From Chthoniobacterales bacterium (GTDB taxonomy: Bacteria > Verrucomicrobiota > Verrucomicrobiia > Chthoniobacterales > UBA10450), in NCBI GenBank assembly GCA_013821455.1, contig JACDGS010000003.1, positions 1 to 64,000 on the forward strand: a stretch of DNA of 64,000 nucleotides, given 5' to 3'. The notes under the pieces were generated by a model. It was not told the origin of the DNA. It ran no database searches and saw nothing but the letters and a program-made list of their open reading frames with translations. Both the position numbers and the translations under genes were made by a program. Positions 31,902 through 39,775 of the stretch are shown in pieces (the stretch's first letter is position 1; every line of letters begins with the position of its first letter).

Positions 31902-34900
31902 TCACGCAACATCTGCCTGCTGGAAGCTCTCGAAAAGATGCTCGAAAACAGCGGAGCACTTCTTCTGGTAAAGCTCCGGCGTGTAAGCGCGCGGCAAGCC
32001 GTCATCGAGTTCGTCCTCGATTGCGAGCCTGACTTGCGCTCGCCCTTGCGCGGTTTGTCGCCAGTTAAATCCGAGCGCCTGCTTCACACGCTTTAAAAGT
32101 TGTCGGGCGACCTTCTTTACTTCTTCGCGTTCTTCCTCGCTTAGTTCAGGGCCGGGACGAATGAGAAGGTCGAAGACGGTTAACTCCGCTTCGCTGAGTT
32201 GTTCGCGAACGTGGCGCTGTTCTTCTTCGTTTAGAGTCCGAGTAAAGATTAGCAGTTCTTCGAATAGCTCCTGAATCGTCCGGCTACCGGAGTTGTAGGA
32301 CTCTATTAGCTCTTCGAATTTCGTCAGGTAATCGGCGCGCGTTTTATTTAGTCGAATGAGCTTGTCGAGCTGAGCGCGGATAGCTGCCTTCAATCGTTCG
32401 AGATCGATGTTCTTCTTTCTTGATTGCTTGAAGCGCTTCGCGAGTTTGTCGAAATCGATCTTCGCCAGGTCGATGACCCCGCGGCCATCGCTGCCTTCTT
32501 GAATTGTGAATCCATCGGCCGCGATCGAGTCGTCCAGTAGTTCATTCACCTTCGCCCTCACGGCAGAGATGTCGACCGGTTCGCCGCCGCCCGTTCGCAG
32601 ACGGATTTCGTCTGCTATGGTCGTTAGGCAATAAACCTTAGACGCAAATTCGAGGACGGCGGGATCTGGTTTGATCGCTTGGAAAAGTGTGCGCACCAAT
32701 CGTTCGTGTCCTAGGAACTGTTTCCGCAAAGGATCGGGCGAGATGAGGGCGTCAACTGCATCGCCGATCAGCCTAACCTTTTCCATGTCAGTAGCTGCTT
32801 CGATGGCGGCGATCTTGACGCCATGCTCCGCGCAAAAGGCGACCACTGCATCGACCGCTTTGGCTAGCTCATTTACCAACTCCGTCTTATCGCGCACCGG
32901 CGTCGCGCCGCCCTTTCCGGCGCCGTAAATTGCCAACGCCTTTTCGAGGGAAGCGAAGACATTCGCATAGTCCACAATCAAACCGCTGTGCTTACCGGGA
33001 TAGACGCGATTCGCGCGGGCGATCGTTTGCATGAGGGTGTGATTTCGCATCGGCTTGTCGAGGTAGATGGTCGAGCAACTTGGCGCGTCGAAGCCGGTCA
33101 GCCACATCGCGCAGACGAAGACCAGGCTTAGCGGGTCGTCAGGGTCTTTGAATTTCTCGTCGAGCCTCTCCGCATTCATCCGCTTCCGGTGCGGGAGGAT
33201 GTCGAGCCCGAGTTTCACCATTTGCTCGATCTCGTTTTGCGCAGGCGAGACGATCAACGCCATGTCAGTGTTTTTCAGAGCGAGCCGCTCGTTCAAGAAT
33301 CGGACTCGTTCGGGATCCGATTCTGTGAAACTCGTCAGCTTCATTAGCTCCTTTTCCACCCGCTCCTGCTCAGCCAGCCAATGCTTGCGCACCTTGTCAT
33401 ACATCTTCAGCGCGGTGGCCTTGTCGATTGACACCACCATCGCTTTCCCTTGGAAGCCGCGGCCGAGAAAATGGCTCATGATATCCTTCGCCACTTTCTC
33501 CAGCCGATCGTCGCGCGTGATGATGTGATACTGCCGGCCAAGCTGCGTCTCGAGACGCTGTTCCGCCTCTTCGCTTAGCTCGGCTTCTTCGATCAACTCA
33601 TAGATCTCTTCGTTGAGACTCGGGTTGGTGAGATGCAGCTCCGGCGTCCGATTCTCGTAAAAGAGCGGGACGGTCGCGCCATCTTCGACCGACTGCTGGA
33701 AATCGTAGATCGAGACGTAATCGCCGAAGACTTCGCGCGTCCGCTCCTCGCCCGCGATCAACGGCGTGCCGGTGAAAGCGAGGAACATCGCGCGCGGCAG
33801 CGATGCCCGCATGTTCACCGCCAGAGTGTCGTATTGGCTGCGATGCGCTTCATCGGTCAGGACGATGATGTCGGGCCGCTCGCTCAGCACTTCCGGCACG
33901 GAGAACTTCTGGACCAGGGTGAAGATATAGCGATGATTCCCGCTCAACAGCTCGCGCAACTCCGCGCCACTTTGCGCGTGGCACTCATCGCCTTCGTGCT
34001 GCGTCACCGCTCCCGTCGCTTTGAAGGTCTTGGCGATTTGATCGTCCAGCTCCCGGCGATCGGTCACCACGACAAAGGTCCAGTTCCCGGGAATCTTGCG
34101 CAGCACCTTCTGCGAGAAGAAGACCATCGAAAAGCTCTTGCCCGAGCCTTGCGTTTGCCAGAACACACCAATCCCATTCGGGCTTGGCGTGTTGCCCTCA
34201 CCCCCAACCCCTCTCCCAGAGGTAGAGGGGAGTGCTTTTGTGGAGGTTATCTGTTCTAGAAACGCGGCGGGCTGGTTGATGACGAATTCGTTTTGAAAGC
34301 GAAGGACGGTGTAGCCAAGCGAGTGAAGGTAAGCGTCTCGTTTGGTGTCCTTTTTTGTAACGACGGGACTTGTGTGGACTTCACCATCGACTTCCACCAC
34401 CAGCATTTTTTCCGCACAGAAGAAGTCCGGGATGTAATCACCGATCTGATGCTGCCGGCGAAATTTCCAGCCCTTCAACTGTCGATCGCGCAGAAGCTCC
34501 CAGGCGATTTCTTCGGCTGACGTTTGTTGCTGCCTCAACCGTCGCGCCCGATCGACCAAACCCGCAAACTGCAGCCCACCGCGATAATGCCCCTCTACCT
34601 TTGGGAGAGGGGTTGGGGTGAGGGTGGCGGGTTTGGTCAAGCCTCCTCGTACCATGAGCAACGAACGAATCGCCGCATTGACACCCAAAACCTGATGATT
34701 CTGCGCGAGAATCTTGACCAAACCCGCCTTACGCCCGGAGAAGAGGGTAAAATTCTCCACCAGATCGAGCAGCCGCGCCGGCTCACAGGTTCCGCGGATC
34801 ATTACTTCGAGCGACACCCGGCGCGGTTCATCTTCACTCTCGACCCGCTTCCACTCGGACATCCGCCCCCAATCCGCCGTGATCGTCCCAACCCGGCTCT

Positions 34901-35519
34901 GCGTCCCGTTCGAAGCGATGATCAGCGCGTTATACCAAAACAAAGCCGGCACGCCGTTCTGCGGATGCTTGTAGCTCGTAATGTTTTCGTCGAACGCCGC
35001 TCGCGCGGAGACGCCAGGCTTCTTGAATTCAATCAGCACCAGCGGCAAGCCGTTGACGAAGCCGATCAAGTCAGGCCGCACCGTGTAGAGCGGACCGGTG
35101 ACCGTCATTTGACTAACGAGTAAAAGATCGTTTCTCTTCGCGTCATCCCAATCGATCACCCGCACCCGCTCGATCTTTTCGCCGCCACGCTCGCGATCCG
35201 GCACGCTTACCTGCACGCCATCTTTCAACAATTCGTAAACTTCGCGATTCGCCGCCGCGGGTAGCATCGCGGAGCGATCACGCGCGAGTTGATCCGTTGC
35301 CGCCGTGATTGCTTCCGGCGGAAGCTGTGGATTGAGCTTCGTCAAAGCCGCTTGAAGCCGAGTGAGCAAAACGACCTCGGCGCTCGTCTCGCGCTGCAAG
35401 GTTCCGATTGGTCCGAAGATTTCCTGAAATGCGGAGACGGTCGCCCAGCCGAGCTCGCGAAAAAGCTCCACCGCCGGCCGCTCGATTAGCAGGTCTTCAG
35501 TGTAGCCGTGAGCGCTCAT
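31902..35519 (-). CDS. hsdR: type I restriction enzyme R subunit with an internal DUF559 domain
   Basis: Motor and nuclease subunit of a type I system, 1205 residues. The N-terminal PD-(D/E)XK nuclease has RPDLIGFVNGLPLVLIEFKK near 150-170. Helicase motifs are WQTQGSGKSF (Walker A), VLTDEAHRSQY (DEAH), and MWLTGFDAPSCSTIYLD. Between nuclease and helicase, residues about 298-442 are foreign: a DUF559 domain (LRDRQLKGWKFRRQHQIGDY, then DFFCAEKMLVVEVDGEVH) flanked by proline-rich peptides encoded by inverted palindromes (34195-34624). The frame stays open, so the insertion may be tolerated. It starts immediately after the stop of the yhcG-like gene. Only one CCTAACGA word is in its 3.6 kb. Confidence 0.93.
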   Translation of the reverse strand: MSAHGYTEDLLIERPAVELFRELGWATVSAFQEIFGPIGTLQRETSAEVVLLTRLQAALTKLNPQLPPEAITAATDQLARDRSAMLPAAANREVYELLKDGVQVSVPDRERGGEKIERVRVIDWDDAKRNDLLLVSQMTVTGPLYTVRPDLIGFVNGLPLVLIEFKKPGVSARAAFDENITSYKHPQNGVPALFWYNALIIASNGTQSRVGTITADWGRMSEWKRVESEDEPRRVSLEVMIRGTCEPARLLDLVENFTLFSGRKAGLVKILAQNHQVLGVNAAIRSLLMVRGGLTKPATLTPTPLPKVEGHYRGGLQFAGLVDRARRLRQQQTSAEEIAWELLRDRQLKGWKFRRQHQIGDYIPDFFCAEKMLVVEVDGEVHTSPVVTKKDTKRDAYLHSLGYTVLRFQNEFVINQPAAFLEQITSTKALPSTSGRGVGGEGNTPSPNGIGVFWQTQGSGKSFSMVFFSQKVLRKIPGNWTFVVVTDRRELDDQIAKTFKATGAVTQHEGDECHAQSGAELRELLSGNHRYIFTLVQKFSVPEVLSERPDIIVLTDEAHRSQYDTLAVNMRASLPRAMFLAFTGTPLIAGEERTREVFGDYVSIYDFQQSVEDGATVPLFYENRTPELHLTNPSLNEEIYELIEEAELSEEAEQRLETQLGRQYHIITRDDRLEKVAKDIMSHFLGRGFQGKAMVVSIDKATALKMYDKVRKHWLAEQERVEKELMKLTSFTESDPERVRFLNERLALKNTDMALIVSPAQNEIEQMVKLGLDILPHRKRMNAERLDEKFKDPDDPLSLVFVCAMWLTGFDAPSCSTIYLDKPMRNHTLMQTIARANRVYPGKHSGLIVDYANVFASLEKALAIYGAGKGGATPVRDKTELVNELAKAVDAVVAFCAEHGVKIAAIEAATDMEKVRLIGDAVDALISPDPLRKQFLGHERLVRTLFQAIKPDPAVLEFASKVYCLTTIADEIRLRTGGGEPVDISAVRAKVNELLDDSIAADGFTIQEGSDGRGVIDLAKIDFDKLAKRFKQSRKKNIDLERLKAAIRAQLDKLIRLNKTRADYLTKFEELIESYNSGSRTIQELFEELLIFTRTLNEEEQRHVREQLSEAELTVFDLLIRPGPELSEEEREEVKKVARQLLKRVKQALGFNWRQTAQGRAQVRLAIEDELDDGLPRAYTPELYQKKCSAVFEHLFESFQQADVA
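34195..34624. mobile_element. in-frame DUF559 cassette bounded by inverted palindromes within hsdR
   Basis: The left boundary (34195-34232) carries CCCTCACCCCCAACCCCTCT and the right boundary (34590-34624) carries its near-exact inverse complement, ending GGGTTGGGGTGAGGG. Between them lies about 350 bases encoding a complete DUF559 (Vsr-like PD-(D/E)XK) domain. The whole cassette is open in the hsdR frame, adding about 145 residues. Boundaries are approximate; no target duplication could be assigned by eye. Confidence 0.7.
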
Positions 35520-36755
35520 CTATTTTTCGTCGGAGAGTTGTTTCTCCAGCTCCGCGATTGTCGGGAGCGCGCCGCGCAGCTTCTTCGGCAGCGACTCGAC
35601 CAGACGCGTTTTCCATCCGGCCACGCCGATCGGTTTGGCGAGGTCGCGCAGAGCGTATTCCACGGTGAGCTGCTGCTTGTCCTTGCAGAGAAGAAGACCA
35701 ATCGTCGGCTGATCCGCCGCGTCGCGCCTCTGATCGTCCACCGCCGAAAGATAGAAATTCATCTTCCCGGCAAACTCGGGTTTGAAAGGCTCCATCTTCA
35801 GGTCGATGACCACGAAGCAACGCAGCTTCAAGTGATAGAAAAGGAGATCGAGATAGTAATCCTCGCCCGCCACTTCCAGATGCACCTGCCGTCCGACAAA
35901 GGCGAAGCCGACTCCGAGTTCAAGCAGGAATTTCTGGATGTGTTCGACCAGCCCTTGCTCCAGCTCACGTTCGCGCGCGTCGGCTGCGATGGTGAGAAAA
36001 TCGAAAGTGTAAGGATCTTTCAACACCTGCTGCGCGAGATCGGATTGCAGCGGCGGCAGCGTGCGCGCGAAGTTCGTCAGCGCTTTGCCCATGCGTTGGT
36101 GCGCCTTGGTTTCAATCTGGACAGTAAGCACTGCGTGGCTCCAGCCATGCTCAAGAGAGCGCTGCATGTACCAAACGCGTGTGGCAAGGTCTTTGACCTT
36201 TTCCATCAGTAGGACGTGTTGTGCCCATGGTAATTTTGCAACAAGCGGTTGCAAAATTTCGTCGGGATGACTTTTTGCCACAGGCATTGGCAAAATTCCG
36301 GCGGACTCTAATTGTGCCGATGGTGTTGGCACAATTGCATCCTTGGGCGAGAGCGGAGTGGCGGGCGCCAAAAGGGCCGCGGGCTGCGACCCAAATTCAG
36401 TGCCCGGTAATTTTGCCAACGCTGTTGGCAAAATTGGAAACAAGGTCGGATACTCCTGAAAGAAGCGGATCATTCGTCCGATGTTCCGCTCCGAGAAACC
36501 CCGCATCTCCGGAAATTCCGCGTGCAGATCGGCGGCCAGCCGCGGGATCACGCCCGCGCCCCAACCTTCCTTCGCCTGCATCGCCGCGATGCGCTCGCCC
36601 ATCTGCCAGTAGAGCAGGACCAACTCCGCATTCACCGCCACCGCCGCCTTCATCTGCGCCGCACGGATGCGCGTCTTCAGATCGGAGAACCACCGCGCAT
36701 AACCGGAGAGCGATACACTCTTGGGCTTCGCGAGGGAACGGTGCGGCTTGCTCAT
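35520..36755 (-). CDS. YhcG/DUF1016-family PD-(D/E)XK nuclease protein with in-frame hairpin repeats
   Basis: Protein of 411 residues. The N-terminal DUF1016_N domain (YWQMGERIAAMQAKEGWGAGVI, then LHAEFPEMRGFSERNIGRM) is followed by the hallmark LPWAQHVLLMEKVKDL and a C-terminal nuclease domain with FVVIDLKMEPFKPEFAGKMNFYL. Such genes are often found inside type I restriction operons, as here between hsdS and hsdR. Between the two conserved parts (residues about 107-174) lies an inserted stretch with repeats such as ILPTALAKL, IVPTPSAQL and ILPMPVAKS, encoded by palindromes. ATG 36755 is chosen; the longer frame overlaps hsdS. Confidence 0.85.
   Translation of the reverse strand: MSKPHRSLAKPKSVSLSGYARWFSDLKTRIRAAQMKAAVAVNAELVLLYWQMGERIAAMQAKEGWGAGVIPRLAADLHAEFPEMRGFSERNIGRMIRFFQEYPTLFPILPTALAKLPGTEFGSQPAALLAPATPLSPKDAIVPTPSAQLESAGILPMPVAKSHPDEILQPLVAKLPWAQHVLLMEKVKDLATRVWYMQRSLEHGWSHAVLTVQIETKAHQRMGKALTNFARTLPPLQSDLAQQVLKDPYTFDFLTIAADARERELEQGLVEHIQKFLLELGVGFAFVGRQVHLEVAGEDYYLDLLFYHLKLRCFVVIDLKMEPFKPEFAGKMNFYLSAVDDQRRDAADQPTIGLLLCKDKQQLTVEYALRDLAKPIGVAGWKTRLVESLPKKLRGALPTIAELEKQLSDEK
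36232..36435. repeat. four in-frame hairpin repeats inside the yhcG-like gene
   Basis: Stems: AATTTTGCAAC/GTTGCAAAATT (36232-36258), TTTTGCCA/TGGCAAAA (36273-36295), AATTGTGCC/GGCACAATT (36310-36336) and AATTTTGCCAAC/GTTGGCAAAATT (36409-36435). All share the core TTGTGCC or TTTGC(C/A)A and loops of 3-9 bases. They are AT-rich against the GC-rich surroundings and stay in frame, encoding a repeated I-(V/L)-P-x-x-x-A-(K/Q) peptide. Confidence 0.85.
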
Positions 36756-36765
36756 TTGTTCAATC

Positions 36766-38007
36766 TTACCGGCGCGCGATTTCGTCTTCGGCTCGGGAAA
36801 CATCCAGCGGCAACTGACCCGATAACAAACGCGGCAGCAGCAGGTCGCGAGTGCGGCGAAGGTTTTGGATTTTGCGTTGAAGGGCCAGAACCTGCTCAGC
36901 CATTGGCATAGCGGCAGACTCGAAACGCGCAACGAGTCGAGCAGGCGGCTGAAGAAAGTTGATTGTCTTGAAAACCCCGCGACTTATCTCTTTGAAGGTT
37001 GCGCCCGAAGCGATCCGAACGAACTGCGGCACGTTGTCCGTGAGCCACTCGAAAAGGAAATGAAGCGGAGATCGCTCGTTCGGTAGGCAAGTGATGAAGC
37101 CCTGATTGGTGCAAGCTTCGTGTGTGTTAATCGCGATCGCACCGATCGTGGCGCGGCTCGTTAGCATCACGCTACACGCCGGGAACAGTCGGGCAGAGCT
37201 TTCGGCTAACCCGCGTTCGTTAATGTGATCACTGGAATCGTCCATGAACCTTGTATCTGCGCCCGTGAGGTCGCTTGGCGAGAACCACTGGATCGTTCCG
37301 CCGTCCCAATAGGCCGATTCTTTTCGGGAAGGTGTTCCCCCGCCAGAAATCTCGAATGACTCCGCGACAGTTTTCACTTCCCAGCCTTTTGGGATCGGCC
37401 CGAGGACGGAATCGACGCGGGGGACTTTTTCGTGGCCAGAGAAGCGGAAGTGGACGAACCACTCGCGGTAAAGGGCGCGGGCCATCTCCTCCAGGATGCG
37501 GATGCGCCGCTGACAGTTCTCCATCAGCTCGTCGTAGGCCGACAGGATGCCTGCGATGCGGCGCTGGACCGGCAGTGGAGGCAGCGGCACTTCAACCAAG
37601 CGAAGGTTCGACTGGGAGAGCTTGGGTTGTGCGGCTCCAGTCACGTAAGGCTTGATGTCCGCGTTGTTCAGGCAGGCTAACAGAAATGTGTCGTCCGCTA
37701 CTTCCGGCTTGCCCCTCAAGATGTGGGCATGATTATTCACCCAGAACTTGCCGCTCGCGAACAGAGCGAGTGGTAGCTTTTTGCTGTTCAAATTCTCGCC
37801 GTCTTCGGCAACTAGAATATAGCTACCATCAAAGATATAGTCGTCGATGTGGTCAATTATTCCCTGCGCACCGTAGTAGGGAAATGGCCCCTGCCGCTCC
37901 TGCCGCTCGCGGCTGTTGAGAGGCACGCGTTTGTGATCAAAAAGGTCAATCACTTCGCCGAGCGGACGTATTTCCCATGTTCCGTCTCCGTTTTCGACCG
38001 GCATCAC
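36766..38007 (-). CDS. hsdS: type I restriction-modification specificity subunit
   Basis: Determines the DNA target of the methylase and restriction complexes. At 413 residues it has the usual two target-recognition domains: TRD1 about 10-150 ([18 protein letters not shown]...) and TRD2 about 205-375 ([20 protein letters not shown]...), each followed by the conserved helix containing [28 protein letters not shown] or its second copy near the C-terminus. It lies 3' of hsdM, overlapping the detached hsdM tail by four bases. Target sequence cannot be predicted by eye. Confidence 0.92.
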
Positions 38008-38216
38008 TTCTCCAGTATCGCCGCGACATTCCGCGCGACGGTCTCCTCAAGCTCCCGAGCATATGCGTTCAGAGTTTCGAGTTCCTCGTTAAGTGTGCCG
38101 AGCTGAGTCTTGAAGTCTTCGTCGCTTACTTCTTCGCCGGGAGCCACGCCGACATAGCGACCGGGATTGAGCGACCAGCCTTGGGCTTCTATTCTTCGAT
38201 CGTGGCGGCTTTGCAT
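38004..38216 (-). pseudogene. hsdM: detached C-terminal segment of hsdM (frameshift)
   Basis: Open frame reading [20 protein letters not shown] and then [37 protein letters not shown], which is the canonical HsdM C-terminus. The main hsdM frame ends CKAATIEE-stop at 38189. A single extra A in the GAAGAATAG stretch (around 38189-38197) would restore [19 protein letters not shown]. It is therefore a one-base deletion or assembly error, not a separate gene. Confidence 0.85.
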
Positions 38217-39775
38217 AAGCCAGGTACGTCTCTGTAACCCAGCTTCTCTCGATATGTAGCTGGCTCTTCCGCGACCTTTAGTCCTTCTGACTTTTGCAGC
38301 GCCTTGTGCATCTCGCGCGTGAGATCGATGATCTTGTTCCCAAAGGTCTCTTCGAGTTTCTCTCTCGCTTCATCGCCGCCGAGTGTGAAGTCGAGCGCCT
38401 CGCCGCGATAGAGCCTGACGACGTTGGCGAGGAAGCCGATCTGCGCTTCGGTCCAGTCACGATGCGCGCGGTCGATCTGGCGAAAGATGTGGCGGGCGTC
38501 TATAAACAGAACCGTTTCAGCGCGGCTCAGTTTACCCTCACCCCGACCCTCTCCCACTGGGAGAGGGGGACGCGAAGCGCCGGGTGAGGGTGTTTTATAC
38601 GGTGACGCCTTCCCCCGATCGAGGAACCAGAGAGTGCAGGGCAACGTCACTGTATAAAACATGTTTGGCCCGACGGCGACCATCACGTCGACGGCGCGGG
38701 TTTCGATGAGCTGACGGCGGATTTCCTGCTCGGAGGCGCGGGCGTCGGAGGCGGAGTTGGCCATGACGAAGCCGGCGCGGCCGCGTTTGCCTAACGAGGA
38801 AAAGAAGAGCTGGATCCAGAGGTAGTTCGCGTTGTCGGTGCGGGGCAGGCCGAAGGGAAAGCGGCGGCCGGGGCCGACCTCGCCTTCCAACCGCTCCTTG
38901 TCCACGGCGTTGACGTTGAAAGGCGGATTGGCGAGGACGAAGTCGAAGCGGCCGGTGCTCTCGTGCGGGTCGTCGTAGTAGCTCATGGCTTCGCGCACGT
39001 CGCCTTCGAGGCCGTGCATGGCGAGGTTCATGCGCGAGAGGGCGACGGTCGCGCCGACTTTTTCGTTGCCATGAATGGAGAGCTCGCGCGCCGGATTTTT
39101 CCGATGCTCGGCGACGAAGCGCGCGCTCTGCACGAACATCCCGCCGGAGCCGGTCGCGGGATCGTAAACGCTGCCGTGGTAGGGCTCGAGCACTTCGACG
39201 ATGAAGCGGACAATGCTCGCGGGGGTGTAGAACTCGCCGCCCTTCGAGCCTTCGGTGCGGGCGAATTCGCCGAGGAAGTATTCGTAGATGCGGCCGAAGG
39301 CGTCGTAGTCGAGGCCGGCGGGAATCTCCGAGACGCGCTTAAGCAACTGCTTCAGGAGCGGACTGGCAAATATCTCGTAGGTCTTCGGGAGGACGCCGGC
39401 GAGCTGCGGGTTGTCGCGCTCGATCGCGCGCATGGCGTCGTTCAGCTTCGAGCCGATGTTCGCGCCCTCCGGCAGGCTGAGGAGGAAATCGAAACGCGCG
39501 TCCGGCGCGAGGAAGATGATGCCTTCGGCAGTGTAGGCTTTCGGGTCGTCGAGGCGCGAGCCGCGGCGGGTGCCGGTGGTTTGATTCTCCAATTCGGCGC
39601 GCTGTTTGGCGAAGCGGACTTCGGCGAAGCGCAGGAAGATGAGGCCGAGGACCGGGCCGGAGTATTGTTGCGCGGTGAGGCCGGAGTTGGCGCGGAGCTG
39701 GTCGGCGGCCTGCCAGAGGCGCTTCTCCAGCTCATCGTTGGCGGCGTCCTTTTCGGAGGGGGCAATCCACTGCAT
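38189..39775 (-). CDS. hsdM: type I restriction-modification methyltransferase subunit (frameshifted near 3' end)
   Basis: N6-adenine methyltransferase subunit. [18 protein letters not shown] (SAM site, near 195-212) and the catalytic [10 protein letters not shown] (near 285-294) are intact, preceded by the all-helical N-terminal domain. The frame ends at 528 residues with the C-terminal ~65 codons moved to another frame (see 38004-38216). Residues about 395-413 ([18 protein letters not shown]) come from an in-frame palindromic element at 38535-38590. First gene of the operon hsdM-hsdS-yhcG-hsdR; an antisense open frame across it is a composition artefact. Confidence 0.9.
38535..38590. repeat. 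in-frame palindromic element inside hsdM
   Basis: Outer arms CCCTCACCC (38535) and GGGTGAGGG (38582-38590) and inner arms CCCTCTCCC/GGGAGAGGG pair around a short loop. The core CCCTCACCCC/CCCTCTCCC is the same as the boundaries of the DUF559 cassette in hsdR. It is in frame and adds about 19 Gly/Pro-rich residues. Confidence 0.8.

Follow-up and report, generated by a model that had tools for sequence, protein, structure and literature searches.

The R-subunit gene (hsdR) of a type I restriction-modification operon in the window, a stretch of 64,000 nucleotides from a Chthoniobacterales bacterium, carries within its reading frame a complete DUF559 nuclease domain framed by inverted repeats with triplex potential. 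We favor, with moderate confidence, the interpretation that this cassette is a non-splicing, in-frame mobile element composed of a triplex repeat, a Vsr/I-Bth0305I-like endonuclease (DUF559) and the inverted repeat. At the level of sequence, our comparison of genomes shows that the cassette was gained or transferred at about 11 sites, that it interleaves with alleles lacking it and that adjacent host codons were exchanged along with it; it also shows in-frame tolerance, conserved nuclease residues, an association with the triplex repeat and, at these sites, derivatives that have no nuclease. The ingredients are already known, namely DUF559, the triplex motif (TM), in-frame palindromes in the style of Rickettsia palindromic elements and Vsr-like homing enzymes. 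In open-access papers we found no report that connects DUF559 to the triplex motif or to insertion in frame, and the combination is probably an overlooked mobile element whose host protein must carry it.

Results

The cassette lies in frame between HsdR domains

The minus-strand operon in the window encodes a type I restriction-modification system (Table 1). The first-pass annotation had placed a complete DUF559 domain in frame in HsdR between the nuclease and helicase domains, and both the coordinates and the order of the Pfam domains hold. It had also described an open frame without an intein, which agrees with our results: in the ORF translation the hsdR frame is uninterrupted over 1205 aa, cassette included, and a Pfam scan of HsdR detected no Hint/intein domain. 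DUF559 was matched with E=2e-33 in the whole HsdR and 7e-35 with the cassette alone, and its score of 119.7 bits compares with a curated cut-off of 20.6. By inspection, the motifs of the host are intact, including D150 and E164-x-K166 of its nuclease, the Walker A motif TQGSGKS and DEAH. This cassette is the single DUF559 copy in the 4.3-Mb genome.

A nuclease lying inside a host gene recalls inteins. However, besides the missing Hint domain, no Rfam family of group I or II introns was matched (the lone chance match had E 0.94, far under the gathering score), the ORF is continuous, and the same architecture is found in many independent genomes. We consider an intein, an intron or an assembly artefact extremely improbable.

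Table 1 Features of the operon and of the hsdR cassette (window coordinates).
Feature	Position	Strand	Remarks
hsdR host ORF, type I restriction enzyme R subunit	31902..35519	-	1205 aa
DUF559 cassette	34195..34624	-	430 bp bounded by outer CCCTC/GAGGG ends
Upstream-side triplex motif	34590..34624	+	CCCCTCTACC TTT GGGAGAGGGG TT GGGGTGAGGG, third arm outward
Downstream-side triplex motif	34195..34230	-	reads CCCCTCTACCTCTGGGAGAGGGGTTGGGGGTGAGGG in hsdR direction
DUF559 (PF04480) Vsr-like nuclease domain	34242..34553	-	residues 323-426; Pfam
HSDR_N nuclease domain, upstream of cassette	34872..35504	-	residues 6-216; Pfam
SWI2/SNF2 (SWI2_SNF2) translocase domain, immediately downstream of cassette	33570..34178	-	residues 448-650; Pfam
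R-subunit C-terminal domain of HsdR			residues 870-1195; Pfam
hsdM, same operon as hsdR	38189..39775	-	
Probable hsdS, same operon	36766..38007	-	sequence reading only
Solo 56-bp triplex motif in hsdM	38535..38590	-	in frame, loop LWFLDRGK^ETVLFIDAR

Two further features of the operon were observed. Just outside the cassette, hsdR contains a perfect 16-nt inverted repeat, GGCGGGTTTGGTCAAG (34626-34641 / 34713-34728), 12 nt of which recur within the cassette at 34554-34565; this repeat may be a trace of a template switch during insertion. Between hsdS and hsdR there is an extra ORF of 470 aa (35520-36932), which looks like a DUF1016/YhcG-type nuclease.

The cassette ends are triplex motifs

The inverted palindromes previously noted around the cassette are real in that its ends pair as a 29-nt inverted repeat with 97% complementarity (34202-34230/34590-34618), and the local inverted-repeat score is 60 at the cassette versus a maximum of 23 over 50 shuffles. 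Their description needs correction, as each end, 35-36 nt long, combines a purine/pyrimidine hairpin with a third arm, GGGGTGAGGG, that points outward and mirrors the purine stem. Judged by their letters, these "palindromes" are intrastrand-triplex motifs. The TM, earlier named "PIT", has the consensus CCCTCNCCC N3-6 GGGNGAGGG N3 GGGNGAGGG (Holder et al. 2015, PMC4666352). Both cassette ends have the Y-stem, the R-stem and the mirroring third arm (9/10 mirror match) and depart from the consensus by one stem mismatch and a one-base spacer difference; the ends of related cassettes mostly read ACCCTC...GAGGGT. TM-ECO oligonucleotides form a stable triplex in vitro, and the motif is associated with local instability (PMC4666352).

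Over 103 DUF559 flanks, the outward arm matches the mirror of the stem at 74% and the inner side at 47%, and the fit of each arm to its own stem beats permuted partners in 2000/2000 permutations, overall and among non-consensus stems. The mirror is exactly kept in the variants GGGAGAGG/GGAGAGGG (L072), GGGAGGGA/AGGGAGGG (L074) and GGGAGAGA/AGAGAGGG (L080), suggesting that triplex potential, beyond the hairpin alone, is maintained. We regard the support from stem-arm covariation as moderate because the elements are related by descent and because a uniform consensus arm scores similarly (0.706 vs 0.688 in the non-consensus set).

Allowing as many as 3 mismatches, we found no further copy of the cassette repeat in the 4.3-Mb genome; the strict hairpin has a single other occurrence, in hsdM of the same operon. 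We had considered that the motif is a resident high-copy repeat of the source genome and rejected this, as it is confined to this operon; spread of DUF559 within its own genome was rejected on account of its single copy, and a viral or phage origin of the cassette because matches were few and distant.

A target-site duplication, as in IS elements and MITEs, was not found in 34 cassettes (adjacent direct repeats of 0-3 nt, mostly 0), nor was a target sequence common to the insertion sites. The missing duplication argues against a typical cut-and-paste transposase and is compatible with repair-type copying.

The nuclease is modeled as a separately folded unit and is under purifying selection

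An AlphaFold model of HsdR residues 1-720 shows the nuclease folded on its own (319-427) between intact host domains, flanked by two disordered tethers with pLDDT under 50. The first (residues 294-318) is largely encoded by the upstream-side triplex motif and the second (430-445) by the downstream-side motif. Modeled alone, the DUF559 domain reached a pLDDT of 87, and its fold is Vsr-like: the matches were 3hrl (Z 15.4), I-Bth0305I (Z 11.2) and Vsr (Z 10.1), followed by TnsA (Z 7.4). Sequence matches of the cassette domain were in agreement (3hrl, E 8e-34; I-Bth0305I, E 2e-4).

The putative catalytic residues T24, E27, D56, E67, D69 and H73 (model numbering) are invariant in 44/44 sequences. 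In both the cassette and the host, pN is far below pS, with pS saturated, and cassettes at the same site diverge about as much as their hosts do. Residence can be long because such same-site pairs co-diverge with their hosts under purifying selection; their co-divergence would fit long residence as well as mobility, and a useful role for the cassette would also be compatible with long residence and purifying selection. The Caulobacter DUF559 protein VsrA is required for the SOS response in a methyltransferase mutant (PMC12907096), which suggests that DUF559 proteins can damage DNA in vivo. A DUF559 gene has also been placed, in passing, in the EDxHD homing family (PMC9403480).

Cassette-free relatives and exchange of flanking codons

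An alignment with homologues lacking the insertion had been proposed in the first-pass annotation. We found that the HsdRs of the two sister genomes G022 and G350, which are 77-87% identical to the window HsdR, have no cassette, and neither do those of G490 and G393. In the host tree the window HsdR is sister to the cassette-free G022+G350 pair (support 100) and L063 is sister to the cassette-free G393 (support 98); in the cassette tree, the L063 cassette is the closest relative of the window cassette (99/96). Cassette-bearing and cassette-free hsdR genes thus interleave on the host tree, which forces at least five gains or losses on a quick tree with long branches elsewhere.

Over hsdR as a whole, the window is generally nearer to G022/G350 than to L063. 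In the two stretches of ~25 codons that border the insertion, this order is reversed, the nucleotide identity being 72.0/68.6% to L063 versus 56-63% to the sisters. At informative amino acid sites, agreement of the window with L063 versus agreement with the sisters was 8:0 within 25 codons and 19:149 elsewhere (p=1e-7), and the reversal was significant at all radii tried, from 15 to 60 codons. This signal resembles homing with co-conversion, or a local transfer of the cassette plus its flanks, and adaptation of the linker beside the insert could be partly behind it. The two marks of homing, presence/absence at homologous sites and a co-conversion-like pattern in the flanks, are both present, on comparative grounds only.

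A genome search for palindrome-flanked DUF559 and for empty sites had also been suggested, and it succeeded in its first part, with flanked cassettes at about 11 sites. No empty site that is exact at the DNA level was found, the nearest cassette-free genes being the 77-87% identical ones, in which the loop itself is different.

Cassettes occupy many sites, mostly in type I subunits

We collected loci in a phylum search (289 genomes) and by scanning ~85,000 species genomes, in both cases without conditioning on frame; because loci were recognized by similarity, nucleases that have decayed may have escaped. Almost all of the cassette's closest relatives lie in frame within other proteins; the exceptions are L087, whose frame soon meets a stop downstream of the cassette, and a small number that reach contig ends. 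They come from more than 12 phyla, including Verrucomicrobiota, Kiritimatiellota, Lentisphaerota, Omnitrophota, Elusimicrobiota, Planctomycetota and Nitrospirota, and further from Nitrospinota, Chloroflexota, Bacteroidota, Spirochaetota, Pseudomonadota, Cyanobacteriota, other groups and Methanophagales archaea.

Among the 41 host ORFs scanned, HSDR_N was present in 25, N6_Mtase in 11 and Methylase_S in 1; with L087, recognized by sequence, hsd genes make up ~38 of the 41 hosts. The others are methionyl-tRNA synthetase (metG, L095), leucyl-tRNA synthetase (leuS, L113) and a RecQ C-terminal fusion (L098). metG and leuS, presumably essential genes, hold their DUF559 cassettes in frame.

When cassettes were excised in silico and the host proteins aligned, HsdR had five sites: R0, N-terminal (L068), R1 at 226-229, R2 at 265-267, R3 at 287-300 (the window) and R4 at 394-398. 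HsdM had at least three (M1-M3) and HsdS one; metG and leuS included, there are about 11 non-homologous insertion sites. On the cassette tree the host genes are intermixed, with at least 11 host-gene changes (strong branches alone force fewer), and stand-alone DUF559 genes fall mostly in other clades.

The R3 position is common to the window, L063, L064, L065 and L071, as would be expected of an old vertical fusion that is immobile. According to the first-pass annotation, a domain at the same place in other taxa but without palindromes would indicate such a fusion; these four loci share the place, but with palindromes. The interleaved cassette-free genes, the closest HsdRs without a cassette and the ~11 non-homologous sites also speak against vertical fusion, to which we assign a very small probability.

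Solo motifs and nuclease-free forms occur at cassette sites

The solo motif in hsdM of the window follows the strict TM consensus and is the sole other motif copy in the genome. It is absent from hsdM of G024 and G350 (86-88% identical) and of the other relatives examined. The same loop (M1) holds full cassettes in L155, L069, L072, L066 and others, so that it occurs in three states: empty, with a solo TM, and with a full cassette. At a second HsdM loop (M2), G173 (L208) has the motif alone whereas L077 has the full cassette, and HsdR of G198 (L213) carries an in-frame solo motif. In HsdM of G184 (L209), the left and right ends are joined (TM-TM) and the nuclease is absent; this looks like a MITE-like derivative, resembling a cassette from which DUF559 was deleted. 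One or two strict motifs were present in 11 of the 289 genomes; of these 16 motifs, 10 are located within hsd genes or immediately next to them.

The first HsdM loop of G022 (L269) carries a different repeat peptide, EFRNPHSALRN. Since this loop accepts several repeat families, these HsdM loops are general sinks, and the choice of sites may in part reflect what the loops tolerate instead of targeting.

The main rival to the mobile-element reading is that the cassette is a domesticated accessory domain, kept by selection on the host because it adds a useful function to the restriction complex (for instance nicking or the processing of ends) and moved between hsd genes by ordinary recombination and horizontal transfer. 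The predominance of type I subunits among the hosts, the invariant putative catalytic residues, the purifying selection and the co-divergence of same-site pairs with their hosts are all in line with it. However, a fixed function does not predict sites varying so widely over the R, M and S subunits, five of them in HsdR, and the MetRS and LeuRS hosts, the nearest HsdRs without a cassette, and ends that are triplex repeats also found solo and as deletion derivatives count against it as well. We consider domestication unlikely, though worth serious attention.

Proposed mechanism and comparison with known systems

In the mobile-element reading, the cassette lodges in linker loops, chiefly of type I restriction-modification subunits, and is translated as part of the host protein; since the repeats encode flexible tethers, host and nuclease would fold side by side. 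We infer that the nuclease would cut alleles that lack the cassette, or else DNA within or close to triplex repeats, that repair would copy the cassette plus some flank in a homing-like manner, and that rare off-target events or ectopic capture would seed new sites. The in-frame, stop-poor ends and the loop positions would then be survivors of selection for a working host protein.

The hsdM solo copy and the cassette ends fit the TM/TM-ECO consensus closely. TM-ECO is intergenic, and Holder et al. found neither a transposase nor an integrase next to it, whereas the cassette carries its motif within a reading frame, as an inverted pair enclosing a nuclease. The Rickettsia palindromic elements (Ogata 2000; see PMC10969869) are, like the cassette, palindromic and translated as in-frame insertions of many protein genes, but they are ~150 bp long and lack a nuclease, whereas the cassette has 430 bp with DUF559 and occurs in many phyla. 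The earlier comparison with these selfish elements stands insofar as the cassette is mobile, lies in frame, does not splice and brings an endonuclease domain of its own, based on the ~11 sites and the interleaved cassette-free homologues. Vsr-like homing endonucleases (EDxHD; I-Bth0305I, PDB 3r3p) are similar in fold, in sequence and in the co-conversion-like flank signal, but are intron-borne or free-standing, while the cassette is unspliced, fused to its host and ended by triplex repeats. NGO0050 (3hrl), E. coli YcjD and Caulobacter VsrA share the domain of the cassette; these known DUF559 proteins are stand-alone genes, without a report as in-frame cassettes. REP/REPIN sequences with RAYT are also palindromic repeats that have a dedicated enzyme and occur singly or in pairs. 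RAYT is a Y1 (HUH) transposase, whereas the cassette nuclease is PD-(D/E)XK/Vsr-like. There is a fair chance that this type of cassette forms a class of its own.

DUF559 is linked to the triplex repeat beyond the cassette

The motif was found in 11/22 genomes with a strong DUF559 match versus 10/267 others (odds ratio 26, p=7e-9; p=8e-8 once a genome whose sole motif is the cassette's own is set aside), where the p-values are optimistic because genomes are not independent. Stand-alone DUF559 genes in other phyla often have related inverted palindromes on both sides. On a Sphingomonas plasmid (L180:3001-3480), the DUF559 gene lies between sufB and sufC with a perfect complementary 22-bp palindrome pair, and the E. 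coli DUF559 gene ycjD (sapF-fabI, L178:2950-3650), present in 3365/5426 genomes, directly adjoins TM copies.

Another interpretation is passive hitch-hiking, in which the repeats insert or recombine via unknown or host machinery (fork stalling, hairpin repair) with DUF559 as cargo trapped between two of them, while the hsd loops simply tolerate insertions and are often passed on horizontally. Some genomes are rich in solo motifs, the instability associated with the TM (PMC4666352) suits this view, and so does the different repeat peptide in an HsdM loop. On the other hand, the co-occurrence of DUF559 and TM over 289 genomes, the inverted palindromes framing DUF559 genes in distant clades and outside restriction-modification genes, and the conserved putative catalytic residues are at odds with a mere cargo, and we find hitch-hiking rather improbable.

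The TM has 23 copies in E. coli MG1655 and occurs in >260 genomes in all; according to Holder et al., transposases and integrases were never adjacent, and they found no mobility gene nearby (PMC4666352). Tentatively, and with less confidence than for the mobile cassette itself, we propose that DUF559 could be the long-missing mobility partner of triplex repeats. They may together form a so far unrecognized cross-domain class of mobile elements (autonomous TM-DUF559-TM, solo TM and TM-TM), one branch of which would be specialized for in-frame, unspliced residence in type I restriction-modification proteins. For a motif with no known means of spread, a dedicated nuclease would make the question testable, and the three-state sites (empty, solo repeat, full cassette) are ready experimental substrates. 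If true, an unspliced endonuclease element obligatorily carried by its host protein would represent a way of life new to selfish DNA. That the element is concentrated in restriction enzymes, the police of incoming DNA, raises the question of whether these are tolerant sinks, frequent travelers or targets.

We also considered ycjD as a clean strain-level empty site and rejected it, as the alternative allele has an efflux operon beside fabI. On a Synechocystis plasmid (L182:2911-3432), DUF559 with a triplex motif lies inside a DNA methyltransferase gene, apparently splitting that gene.
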